64,000 nucleotides of DNA from Streptacidiphilus jiangxiensis (GTDB lineage: Bacteria > Actinomycetota > Actinomycetes > Streptomycetales > Streptomycetaceae), in the NCBI RefSeq assembly GCF_900109465.1, contig NZ_FOAZ01000001.1, forward strand, positions 447,926 through 511,925, given 5' to 3'. The first letter of the stretch is position 1; every line of letters starts with the position of its first letter. This document shows, one piece after another, positions 32,125 through 35,901 of the stretch. The position numbers were made by a program, and so were the translations under genes. The notes under the pieces are model-generated. The model searched no databases. It was not told where the DNA came from and saw nothing but the letters and a program-made list of their open reading frames with translations.

Positions 32125-34470
32125 ATGCAGGTAGAGCTCCCAGGCACGCTGTCGTCCTTTCCCGGTCCCCACGCGAGCGGCCCCGGCGGCCACCGCGACG
32201 CCGACGCCGTGCTTGCCGGGCTCGACCCGGAGCAGCGCGCGGTCGCCACGGCGCTGCACGGCCCCGTCTGCGTCCTCGCGGGCGCCGGGACGGGCAAGAC
32301 CCGCGCCATCACCCACCGGATCGCCTACGGGGTCCGCAGCGGCGTGATGCAGCCCCAGCGGGTCCTCGCGGTCACGTTCACCGCCCGCGCGGCCGGGGAG
32401 ATGCGCGGCCGCCTGCGCCAGCTCGGCGTCGAGGGCGTCCAGGCCCGCACCTTCCACGCCGCCGCCCTGCGCCAGCTCCAGTACTTCTGGCCCCGGGTGG
32501 TCGGCGGCGAGGTGCCGCGTCTGCTCGAACGCAAGGTGCAGCTGGTGGCCGAGGCCGCGGGACGCTGCCGGATCCGTCTGGAGCGCACCGAGCTGCGCGA
32601 CCTGACGGCCGAGATCGAGTGGGCCAAGGTCACCCAGACCGTTCCCGAGGACTACCCCGCGGCCGCCGTGAAGGCGGGTCGGGAGACGCCGCGTGATCCC
32701 GCCGAGATCCGCCAGGTCTACAAGGTCTACGAGGAGCTCAAGCGCGACCGCGGCGTGATCGACTTCGAGGACGTGCTGCTCCTCGCCGTCGGCGTGCTGG
32801 ACGAGAGGCCGGAGGTCGCCGAACAGGTCCGCGCCCAGTACCAGCACTTCGTCGTCGACGAGTACCAGGACGTCTCCCCGCTGCAGCAGCGTCTGCTGGA
32901 CCTGTGGCTCGGCCCCCGTTCCAGCCTCTGCGTGGTCGGCGACGCCAGCCAGACGATCTACTCCTTCACCGGCGCCACGCCCGCGTACCTGCTGGGCTTC
33001 CGGACTCGTCACCCCGACGCGGCGGTGATCAAGCTGGTCCGCGACTACCGCTCCTCCCCGCAGGTCGTCCACCTCGCCAACGGCCTGCTCGCCCAGGCGC
33101 GCGGCCAGGCCGCGCAGCACCGCCTGGAGCTGGTCTCCCAGCGCGACGCCGGCCCCGAGCCGGTCTACCTGGAGTACCCGGACGAGCCCGCCGAGGCCGA
33201 GGGCACGGCCAAGCGCATCCGCGCCCTGCTGGACTCGGGCGTCCGGGCCAGCGAGATCGCGGTGCTGTTCCGGGTCAACGCCCAGTCCGAGGTCTACGAG
33301 CAGGCCCTCGCGGACCAGGGCATCCCGTACCAGCTGCGCGGCGCGGAGCGCTTCTTCGAGCGTCCCGAGGTGCGCGAGGCCGGCCTGTTGCTGCGCGGTG
33401 CCGCGCGCGCCGGCGGCGGCGCGGTCGACCCGCTGCTGGAGGACGCGCCCGAGCGGCTCGCCGACCAGGTCCGCGCGGTGCTGTCGACGCGAGGCTTCAC
33501 CACCCAGCCCCCGGCCGGATCGGGTGCGGTGCGTGAGCGCTGGGAGTCGCTCGCGGCGCTGGTCCGCCTCGCCGAGGACTTCGAGACGGCGCAGCAAGCC
33601 GCGCAGCAGCCGGCCAACCTCGCGGCCTACGTGGCCGAGCTCGACGCGCGCGCCGCCGCACAGCACGCACCGGCCGTCGAGGGCGTCACCCTCGCCTCGC
33701 TGCACTCGGCCAAGGGCCTGGAGTGGGACGCGGTGTTCCTGGTGGGCCTGACCGAGGGCATGATGCCGATCACCTACGCCAAGACGGACGAGCAGGTCGA
33801 GGAGGAACGACGACTGCTCTATGTCGGCGTCACCCGCGCGCGGGAGCACCTGGGCCTGTCCTGGGCGCTGGCCCGGTCCCCGGGCGGACGCGCCTCCCGC
33901 AGCCCGTCCCGGTTCCTGGACGGCCTGCGCCCCGGCTCCGCCCAGCGAGGCGGGGCGGGTCGCAGCGGTGCGGCCTCGGCCGCTTCCCGCGACGGCGGCC
34001 GGGCCGCCCGCAGCCGGTCGCCGATCAAGTGCCGGGTGTGCGGTCGGGTGCTGACCGAGGCGGTGGAGCGCAAGCTGCGCCGCTGCGAGGACTGCCCCTC
34101 CACGCTGGACGAGGGCCTGTACGAGCGCCTGCGCGACTGGCGGGGACGCACGGCCCGCGAGCAGAGCCTGCCGGGCTACTGCGTTTTCACGGACGCCACG
34201 CTGATCGCGATCGCCGAGCAGCAGCCGGGGGATCTGCCGGAGCTCGGCCAGATTTCCGGCGTCGGCCGGGCCAAGTTGGAGAAGTACGGCGAGGCCGTGC
34301 TCTCGCTGGTGTCCGGCGCCGATCCGTCCGGCGTCGACTCGCAGCTCGAGTTGAACCCGTCCCCGGGCGCGGATCCCGCGTCCGAGCAGGGCGAACAGGC
34401 GGACATCTCGGACCAGTGGGGCGAGCCGGCACCCTCGGCGGACGAGTCTGAAGACTCGCCGGAAAAATAG
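32125..34470 (+). CDS. uvrD2: ATP-dependent DNA helicase UvrD2
   Basis: Superfamily 1 3'-5' helicase, 781 residues, of the actinobacterial UvrD2 type. Walker A LAGAGTGKTRA near 52, VDEYQDVSPLQQ near 245, GDASQTIYSFTGA near 272, LHSAKGLEWDAVFLVGL near 527. C-terminal extras define UvrD2: a tetracysteine element CRVCGRVL...CEDC at about 636-657 and an HRDC domain at about 665-730 (TDATLIAIAEQQPGDLPELG). In M. smegmatis the tetracysteine part is needed for activity. ATG 32125 has GAGAGG nine bases upstream. The stop codon lies inside the promoter region of wblC. Confidence 0.93.
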   Translation: MQVELPGTLSSFPGPHASGPGGHRDADAVLAGLDPEQRAVATALHGPVCVLAGAGTGKTRAITHRIAYGVRSGVMQPQRVLAVTFTARAAGEMRGRLRQLGVEGVQARTFHAAALRQLQYFWPRVVGGEVPRLLERKVQLVAEAAGRCRIRLERTELRDLTAEIEWAKVTQTVPEDYPAAAVKAGRETPRDPAEIRQVYKVYEELKRDRGVIDFEDVLLLAVGVLDERPEVAEQVRAQYQHFVVDEYQDVSPLQQRLLDLWLGPRSSLCVVGDASQTIYSFTGATPAYLLGFRTRHPDAAVIKLVRDYRSSPQVVHLANGLLAQARGQAAQHRLELVSQRDAGPEPVYLEYPDEPAEAEGTAKRIRALLDSGVRASEIAVLFRVNAQSEVYEQALADQGIPYQLRGAERFFERPEVREAGLLLRGAARAGGGAVDPLLEDAPERLADQVRAVLSTRGFTTQPPAGSGAVRERWESLAALVRLAEDFETAQQAAQQPANLAAYVAELDARAAAQHAPAVEGVTLASLHSAKGLEWDAVFLVGLTEGMMPITYAKTDEQVEEERRLLYVGVTRAREHLGLSWALARSPGGRASRSPSRFLDGLRPGSAQRGGAGRSGAASAASRDGGRAARSRSPIKCRVCGRVLTEAVERKLRRCEDCPSTLDEGLYERLRDWRGRTAREQSLPGYCVFTDATLIAIAEQQPGDLPELGQISGVGRAKLEKYGEAVLSLVSGADPSGVDSQLELNPSPGADPASEQGEQADISDQWGEPAPSADESEDSPEK

Positions 34471-34501
34471 TTTGCGCCCGCAGTGCGGACCCTACTAGCG
34501 T
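34463..34501 (+). promoter_or_regulatory. wblC promoter with AT-rich WhiB7-type element
   Basis: AAAAAT (34463-34468) lies directly upstream of a -35 element TTGCGC (34472-34477), with -10 candidates TACTAG (34493-34498, 15-base spacer) or TAGCGT (34496-34501, 18-base spacer). WhiB7/WblC proteins are known to recognise an AT-rich patch next to the -35 with their AT-hook, and they activate their own gene. The patch overlaps the uvrD2 stop codon. Confidence 0.65.
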
Positions 34502-34676
34502 GCCGAGCACGGTCGAGGAAACGAGACCGAGCCCACTCAGGCACCCCCTGCAGCGGGCGTTACTGCTGCGTGCTGTACAGCTCCCGAGCTGTCCTGCAAG
34601 CTTGAAGGAAGTGACCACCTACGGGTCCGCCGAACCAGCGGACCCCGAGCGCGCCGAAGGGAGGCGGACATTGTGA
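34500..34676 (+). other. Open frame in wblC leader before the 137-residue leader ORF
   Basis: A GTG at 34500 opens a 58-codon frame whose TGA (34674-34676) overlaps the GTG at 34673 of the next frame. An inner GTG at 34611 would give 21 residues. Neither has a well-spaced RBS. The region also holds two hairpins: ACAGCTC/GAGCTGT (34577-34592) and GGGTCCGC/GCGGACCC (34623-34645), the latter just upstream of the RBS of the leader ORF. Translation is unproven. Confidence 0.3.
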
Positions 34677-34681
34677 TCAGC

Positions 34682-35095
34682 ATGACGAAACTGGCTGGCC
34701 GGACGGTGACCGTCGCGGACTTCGGCATGCGTGGCTTCGGCATGCGTGGCTTCGGCCTGCCCTGTGGCAAGGCCAGTGGTCTGTCCTTCGCAGGCACCGG
34801 TGTCGAGGCCACCCGTGTGCGCGTCGCCGCCGAAGCGACCGTCGCGAGTGACGCCTTTGCCGCCCTGGCTGGTAACGGCCTCGGCGCCTGGGATGCCCGT
34901 CGTCTCGAGCGACCGCTGTCGGCGTCCGTAGTGAAGCTGTCCGCCCTGGCCGGCGGTTATGGCGACGCGACGGGTGCCGGAACCCAGACGAAGCAGCAGC
35001 CCCAGCAGCACCAGCTCCACATGCAGAAGATCGCCGCAGCGGCGATGACGATTCAGGCCCTCCGCGGACCTGACCCCTGGATAGATCGAACCTGA
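34682..35095 (+). CDS. Leader ORF upstream of wblC (putative regulatory uORF)
   Basis: Predicted 137-residue protein of no recognised family: MTKLAGRTVTVADF, a duplicated FGMRG (15-bp direct repeat at 34721-34750), FGLPCGKASGLSF, an Ala-rich middle and a Gln-rich end (TKQQPQQHQLHMQK). Codon third positions are strongly GC, which supports translation. GGGAGG lies upstream, suiting GTG 34673 or ATG 34682. The stop is 25 bases before a strong intrinsic terminator, and its last codons contain TCCGCGGA (35061-35068), which can pair with either arm of that terminator. The layout fits a translated leader whose ribosome traffic controls readthrough into wblC. It is longer than uORFs I know for WhiB7 genes, so it might also be a separate gene. 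Confidence 0.6.
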   Translation: MTKLAGRTVTVADFGMRGFGMRGFGLPCGKASGLSFAGTGVEATRVRVAAEATVASDAFAALAGNGLGAWDARRLERPLSASVVKLSALAGGYGDATGAGTQTKQQPQQHQLHMQKIAAAAMTIQALRGPDPWIDRT

Positions 35096-35120
35096 GCCTG
35101 CATCAGGTCGGCACCTTCCA

Positions 35121-35161
35121 GGGCCGCGGAACCCGAATCGGGATCCGCGGCCCTTCTGTTT
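35121..35161 (+). terminator. Intrinsic terminator in wblC leader (attenuator)
   Basis: GGGCCGCGGA (35121-35130) pairs with TCCGCGGCCC (35144-35153). After an A-A mismatch the stem continues CCCG/CGGG with loop AAT, and TTCTGTTT follows. It ends 148 bp before the wblC ATG. TCCGCGGA at 35061-35068 and the hairpin GACCTGA/TCAGGTC (35067-35073 with 35103-35109) offer alternative pairings. Confidence 0.85.
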
Positions 35162-35308
35162 GCCCACAGGCGCACAACAGAACCCAATCGAGAACACCGA
35201 CTCACGAAGGAAGACGACGCGACCGTGTCACCCGTGACCACCTCACTCGCCCCGTCAGCCGCAAACGCCGACCACTTCGACGACTCCCACCCCCCGGAGG
35301 TATCCCTG

Positions 35309-35584
35309 ATGCAGCTCACCGCGTTCGAGGAGGCCGAGACGCTCGGCGCCCCGATCCCCTGCCGCGCCCTCGACCCCGAGGTCTTCTTCGCCGAGTCCCC
35401 GGCGGACGTGGAGTACGCCAAGTCCCTCTGCGGCACCTGCCCGGTGAAGGACGCCTGCCTGACCGGTGCCCTCGAGCGCCGCGAGCCGTGGGGCGTCTGG
35501 GGTGGCGAGCTCTTCGTCCAGGGTGTCGTCGTGGCCCGCAAGCGGCCGCGTGGCCGCCCGCGCAAGACCGAGGTCATGGCGTGA
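35309..35584 (+). CDS. wblC: WhiB-family regulator WblC/WhiB7
   Basis: Iron-sulfur transcription factor that induces intrinsic resistance to ribosome-targeting antibiotics in actinobacteria; 91 residues. Four cluster cysteines are visible: PCRALDP, then SLCGTCPVKDAC (CxxC and x5C). The GVWGGE turn binds the primary sigma factor and the C-terminal KRPRGRPRK is the AT-hook that is unique to the WblC/WhiB7 subgroup. ATG 35309 has GGAGG (35296-35300) at ideal spacing and gives the usual MQL start; an upstream GTG at 35225 is also open. Expression is probably controlled by the leader terminator and by autoactivation. A small coiled-coil protein gene overlaps its stop. Confidence 0.95.
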   Translation: MQLTAFEEAETLGAPIPCRALDPEVFFAESPADVEYAKSLCGTCPVKDACLTGALERREPWGVWGGELFVQGVVVARKRPRGRPRKTEVMA

Positions 35585-35901
35585 CCCCCGCAGGCGCACT
35601 GCGTACTTCCATCCGTGAGATCGCCGATCCGGTGATCGATTCGAACCCCCTCGACGACAAGCAGGTCCCTCCGATGAACCGTCCCGCCAACGCCCGCCCC
35701 CGCTCCGCGTTCCACACCGAGACCTCCCAGAACAGGACCCTCACGATGCAACTCATGCCCGAAGCCCTGGCCCGTGTCCACATGCAAGAGCGTCTGCAGG
35801 AGGCCGAGCGCGAACGATTGCTGCGTGCGCTCCAGCTGAGGCGCCGTGCCGAGCGCGCCTCGCTGCGCGCCCGGCGCGCGCTCGCCGCCGTCGTCCTCTG
35901 A
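35581..35901 (+). CDS. Small basic coiled-coil protein co-translated with wblC
   Basis: Predicted 106-residue protein if it starts at the GTG overlapping the wblC stop (GTGA), or 51 residues from the ATG at 35746 (MQLMPEALARVHMQERLQEA), which has AGGA upstream. The conserved part looks like the C-terminal helix, rich in Arg, Glu, Leu and Ala (ERERLLRALQLRRRAERASL). It is likely a helical, possibly RNA- or ribosome-associated protein, but no function is known. Position after wblC is also seen in streptomycetes from memory. The shared transcript suggests induction together with wblC. Confidence 0.65.
   Translation: MTPAGALRTSIREIADPVIDSNPLDDKQVPPMNRPANARPRSAFHTETSQNRTLTMQLMPEALARVHMQERLQEAERERLLRALQLRRRAERASLRARRALAAVVL

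Follow-up and report, generated by a model that had tools for sequence, protein, structure and literature searches.

What does the long open reading frame that fills the leader of wblC do for Streptacidiphilus jiangxiensis? This frame (uORF) lies directly upstream of the WhiB7/WblC ortholog in the 64-kb stretch of DNA that we analyzed (the window), an arrangement that is repeated in relatives. Comparison of leaders across the family and modeling of their RNA indicate that the uORF is very probably the sensor of a ribosome-controlled transcription attenuator before wblC.

Anatomy of the wblC leader

The promoter, the frame and the gene that it precedes are laid out as follows.

34462..34477, + strand: WblC-type promoter box GAAAAATAGTTTGCGC, a sequence match only, with a -10-like TACTAG at 34493-34498
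34660..34664, + strand: Shine-Dalgarno sequence (SD) of the uORF, GGAGG, 8 nt ahead of GTG 34673, the spacing being 8 or 9 nt in each of the 91 leaders
34673..35095, + strand: uORF, GTG...TGA, 140 codons, placed alike with respect to the terminator in all 91 Streptomycetaceae leaders analyzed
35225..35584, + strand: wblC (whiB7 ortholog), 119 aa, Pfam Whib E 5.4e-16, with a C-terminal RGRPRK/AT-hook

Judged from sequence, the uORF most probably starts at GTG 34673 (140 codons) and not at ATG 34682, since GGAGG lies 8 nt upstream and a spacing of 8-9 nt holds across the 91 leaders. From the SD to ATG 34682 the distance is 17 nt, and methionine is mostly missing at this position in Streptomyces. 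The start codon is GTG in 82 of the 91 leaders and ATG in 9; because starts were picked by SD match, this count is in part a product of that selection, whereas the constancy of the spacing and of the following residues is not. The 137-codon frame described in an earlier note on this DNA is indeed open from ATG 34682 to TGA 35093-35095, but its real start likely lies at the upstream GTG. A small conserved hairpin at 34653-34667 (CGCC-GAAGGGA-GGCG; family consensus ACGCCGAgAGGAGGCG) holds the SD itself in its loop and possibly modulates uORF initiation.

Upstream, GAAAAATAGTTTGCGC supplies the AT-rich box before -35 that is expected of an autoregulated WhiB7-type promoter, as far as sequence can tell, and AAAAATAGTTTGC is found in 78/91 leaders; the WblC site has been described as GAAAWY, 3 nt upstream of -35 (PMC7157823). 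The TAG stop of the UvrD-like helicase gene that lies upstream falls within the box, so that gene end and promoter are fused. A moderately covarying hairpin (about 34508-34596; family consensus CACGGA/TCCGTG) lies between promoter and uORF. Downstream of wblC, we also noticed a small frame at 35677-35901 (MQLMPEALARVHMQERLQEAERERLL...), for which there was no Pfam or NCBIfam match.

The reading frame is conserved across the family

The length of the uORF alone proves nothing, because long frames arise commonly by chance in this GC-rich window (one on the minus strand runs to 192 codons). We therefore turned to relatives. With WblC as the anchor, we gathered leaders from 13 other Streptacidiphilus and from 79 further loci, mostly Streptomycetaceae, together with 42 loci that represent other families in the class. 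A conserved terminator core was present in 91 of the 93 family leaders (window counted), and all 91 carry a uORF of 88-163 codons; for L046 and L050 the frame was re-chosen, the automatic pick being the longest frame. SD, frame, stop and terminator follow one another in the same fixed order in all 91, and the uORF stop sits 21-27 nt ahead of the terminator in each. A uORF with its own SD that ends just before an intrinsic terminator is the arrangement of the whiB7/wblC attenuator.

Loss of the frame while terminator and promoter stay would have spoken against a functional uORF, yet the frame was kept in every one of the 91 family leaders. Between close pairs, uORF indels of length 0, 1 and 2 modulo 3 were counted at 102:34:18, as opposed to 22:63:27 in the 5'UTR. 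This kept frame, with indels mostly in multiples of three, supports the proposal that the leader frame of wblC is translated and regulatory, with translation as the sensor. That the frame is a chance opening in GC-rich DNA, as the other long frames here are, is barely conceivable given that start, SD and stop position are alike in 91 leaders, that indels stay in frame and that the distance to the terminator is fixed.

These comparisons also correct the impression that the uORF is unusually long, since this frame is about the 7th longest of 91. The premise that uORFs of WhiB7-type genes are short fails for Actinomycetes at large, where 35 of the loci gathered from other families share the uORF-terminator arrangement with 50-158 codons (median 78), a set that may hold a few wrong frame choices (e.g. 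L140). The leader uORF of wblC is thus long as a rule, both in the 91 family leaders and at these 35 loci.

Selection appears to hold the RNA and let the peptide drift

If the frame is kept, is it kept for its peptide? Among 33 close pairs, residues changed at 15.3% in the uORF, 11.1% in the UvrD part and 2.5% in WblC, while four-fold third positions changed at 8.7%, 29.5% and 15.1%, respectively. We compared four-fold sites, taking uvrD and wblC as controls, because NG86 dN/dS alone is unsafe in GC-rich codons; the ratios of the N-terminal and Gln-rich parts are inflated by low dS. Read with this caution, NG86 dN/dS was 0.82 for the uORF overall, about 1.5 for its N-terminal part (inflated by low dS) and 0.73 for its spacer.

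Codon choice follows the same trend, as is clearest at one triplet of codons.

34907..34915, + strand: near-invariant GAGCGACCG (E-R-P) with the rare codon CGA; CGA 91/91, CCG 91/91

CGA makes up 2.1% of Arg codons in uvrD, yet it is found in 91/91 uORFs. Further rare codons are frozen as well, including GCA (83/91), AAA (87/91), AGT (60/91) and CCA (72/91). The idea that the frame carries native codon bias does not hold, with a GC3 of 0.78 for the uORF versus 0.94 for uvrD and 0.92 for wblC, and with conserved rare codons. Since residues drift faster than those of UvrD, four-fold sites are held and rare codons are frozen, selection appears to act on the RNA; by these sequence measures, the uORF is conserved as RNA and not as peptide.

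These data bear directly on whether specific residues (e.g. KMTDR, GTGLS or the C-terminal end) form a nascent-chain arrest peptide that stalls the ribosome together with a drug. K6 does recur in 88/91 uORFs and GTG[LM] recurs also outside the family, but K6 is coded by the rare AAA in 87/91 and G43 by GGT in 78/90, which points to RNA. Amino acids that change faster than those of UvrD over held synonymous sites, with dN/dS of 0.82, are the reverse of the pattern expected for such a peptide. In addition, FGMRG is private to one species, and no specific arrest motif is needed to explain why, as the literature reports, drugs of many classes and starvation act as inducers. We consider an arrest peptide improbable, and the earlier suggestion of a nascent-chain sensor found no support: the one strongly conserved peptide end coincides with the antiterminator strand described below, and FGMRG falls in a variable spacer. 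The N-terminal K-M-T-D-R and GTGLS fall outside the known pairings, and for these some peptide role or further RNA role is possible. The GTG motif corresponds to GGCACCGGT[CTG] at 34793-34803, which codes GTG[LMV] and recurs in uORFs of several actinomycete families with GGT favored.

The same earlier note offered a real protein co-induced with WblC as the other option. A good SD, 140 codons and a kept frame are what a small co-expressed protein would show as well. Against this, AlphaFold predicted no fold for the uORF peptide (mean pLDDT 52.8, pTM 0.17), on which ground we rejected a folded-protein reading; there was no Pfam match and no NCBIfam match above its cut-off; residues change fast, at a dN/dS of about 0.8; length varies from 88 to 163 codons in relatives; and full induction requires that the frame be left uncompleted. 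A small protein is thus very improbable, and the suggestion is left without support.

The Gln-rich end and the FGMRG duplication

The Gln-rich end noted previously was confirmed as a Gln/His/Lys-rich stretch, KQQPQQHQLHMQK, at codons about 107-119. It raises the question of an amino-acid-specific attenuator, in which Gln/His/Lys-rich or Ala-rich stretches would answer one starved tRNA as in trp/ilv leaders. In most Streptomycetaceae, a stretch rich in Gln/His does come just ahead of the conserved C-terminal end, and whiB7/wblC is induced by starvation (PMC12421871). However, the stretch is not retained in other families that have the same attenuator, its residues differ at 18.7% of codons in close pairs, and many antibiotic classes induce. 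We regard this explanation as unlikely.

The other conspicuous element is a repeat in the spacer.

34720..34756, + strand: perfect tandem duplication, in frame, of a 15-nt unit encoding FGMRG; it lies in the variable spacer and is missing from the 90 relatives

As described before, TTCGGCATGCGTGGC occurs twice at 34721-34750, coding FGMRG-FGMRG (codons 17-26), and this pair is the sole perfect tandem repeat in the 64-kb window among the unit lengths tested (15, 18 and 21 nt). None of the 90 relatives examined has the duplication, which is private to this Streptacidiphilus species; at the same site, relatives carry either one FGMR or residues unrelated to it. We rejected the duplicated FGMRG as a functional motif, as no relative carries it and in silico deletion of one copy leaves the predicted antiterminator pairing unchanged. 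The duplication is best read as neutral slippage. Another long leader frame, in L154, has an in-frame repeat of its own, MNGAG x3, which suggests that uORF spacer length shifts through small tandem duplications.

A terminator follows the uORF, and a predicted competing antiterminator overlaps its end

Around the end of the uORF and within it, the RNA offers several helices.

35121..35161, + strand: intrinsic terminator GGGCCGCGGAACCCG-AAT-CGGGATCCGCGGCCC-TTCTGTTT, hairpin -30.8 kcal/mol, with a matching core in 91/93 family leaders
35061..35081, + strand: antiterminator strand A in the last uORF codons, 35061-35067 UCCGCGG and 35075-35081 CCCUGGA, pairing with 35117-35130
35117..35130, + strand: strand B, UCCAGGGCCGCGGA, whose partner is strand A or, from 35121, the terminator 3' arm
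35090..35108, + strand: hairpin P2 over the uORF stop codon (ACCTGA / TCAGGT), with compensatory changes at two pairs
34921..34978, + strand: mid-uORF hairpin P1, arms 34921-34928 and 34971-34978, the top covarying leader helix family-wide

Strand A corresponds to codons about 130-136, which read F/L-R-G..P-W. As long as the terminator lacks its 3' arm, the predicted probability of the A:B pairing, which encloses P2, is at least 0.91 in 43/43 species. In silico, the antiterminator excludes the terminator and overlaps the uORF end. Within the family, 98% of A/B cells are paired with no double changes, the arms barely varying, and there is no covariation there. Support comes from the class-wide set: at 33 non-family loci, cognate A/B combinations were more stable, with -28.6 kcal/mol versus -26.2 kcal/mol for swapped ones (permutation p 5e-5, kinship uncorrected).

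Covariation was found for both hairpins. P2 showed 15 double-changed cells versus 1.6 in shuffles, with GC/AU at one pair and CG/UA at another. In a scan of all leader helices, P1 gave 20 double-compensated cells versus 5.4 +/- 1.8 in shuffles, with far lower values for slid controls, and it was recovered by RNAalifold too. In S. jiangxiensis, P1 is weak, with two G-U pairs and a predicted probability of 0.10, which makes it a feature of the family more than of this genome. A switch between the P1 3' arm (GGTGCCGG) and the segment after the stop (TCGGCACC) was rejected: the complementarity is conserved, but covariation is near nil and the predicted probability does not exceed 0.07 for any position of the ribosome. 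Rfam returned nothing at gathering score over the uORF region, with sub-threshold matches only.

Ribosome position is predicted to set the outcome

We then folded the leader with a ribosome footprint, taken as the P-site plus an assumed 15 nt downstream, at equilibrium and not with cotranscriptional kinetics. Under this scheme, antiterminator pairing was 0.80-0.97 with the P-site at least 16 codons before the stop; nearer the stop, it fell to 0.65 at 14 codons, 0.46 at 12 and 0.04 at 10, with none from 8 on. In a scan of the window only, pairing held at 0.43-0.86 through codon 128, dropped to 0.16 at codon 130 and vanished from 132 onward. By this profile, wblC should be opened by a stall at nearly any point of the uORF.

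In the proposed mechanism, a free-running ribosome would reach the last codons and cover strand A, upon which the terminator would form and wblC would be off. If the ribosome stalls, slows or fails to start in roughly the first 125 codons, as under antibiotics or amino-acid starvation, strand A would remain free to pair with the terminator 5' arm around the stop-codon hairpin, and RNA polymerase would read through into wblC. Only a ribosome at the very end of the uORF would close wblC. Any stall along the uORF would then count, making it a generic sensor of translation speed for which a longer frame is a wider detector; the peptide would be a by-product, and its conserved "motifs" mostly RNA elements. 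This ribosome-position logic and the advantage of uORF length are what we infer from the folding model. In an extension that we put forward tentatively and hold to be rather doubtful, the uORF is a generic translation "odometer" whose length, selected via the frame and not the peptide, sets sensitivity, and P1 with the invariant rare CGA just upstream forms a second RNA checkpoint timing RNA polymerase or the ribosome, in a two-stage attenuator.

Relation to known leaders

The Erm leader peptides (ErmBL/ErmCL) are likewise encoded by a leader ORF that precedes a resistance gene and responds to drugs. They are short arrest peptides that work by translation attenuation at specific stall codons, whereas the wblC uORF is without such peptide conservation. 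In E. coli, the toiL uORF of topAI-yjhQ (PMC12121999) shares the property that stalls at many positions count and that several drug classes are sensed; it differs in exposing a ribosome-binding site and in its coupling to Rho, while the wblC leader switches an intrinsic terminator. In the M. tuberculosis ilvB1 leader attenuator (PMC13236596), a ribosome that has reached the stop codon hides the antiterminator strand, so that the terminator forms, as proposed here, but the uORF is short and has four regulatory BCAA codons.

Closest is whiB7/wblC attenuation itself (Lee, Lee and Roe 2022, Mol Microbiol, doi 10.1111/mmi.14834), whose uORF attenuation is known to us as cited in PMC11550727, PMC9618640, PMC12421871 and PMC13393426. 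As these accounts present it, that system has in common with ours the gene, leader uORF, intrinsic terminator, antiterminator and broad response to translation inhibition, and the leader described here is its Streptacidiphilus ortholog. According to the literature citing Lee 2022, inhibition of translation relieves the attenuation, and with this published behavior, so far as it is cited, our predicted stall logic agrees. The attenuator is therefore a known system, and the S. jiangxiensis leader is another member. What may be new are the RNA-over-peptide constraint, the covarying P1 and the class-wide survey of length, of which we found no trace in the citing literature and which may in part be contained in Lee 2022.

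In actinomycetes, intrinsic resistance to many drugs that target the ribosome is driven by WblC/WhiB7, and stalling inside the whiB7 uORF is described as yet to be tested (PMC12121999). If true, the generic-stall reading predicts that induction scales with uORF length independently of peptide sequence, and P1 is a testable element of the leader. Taken together, a long, peptide-indifferent uORF with conserved RNA suggests how one leader may sense many drug classes, namely that any stall counts.
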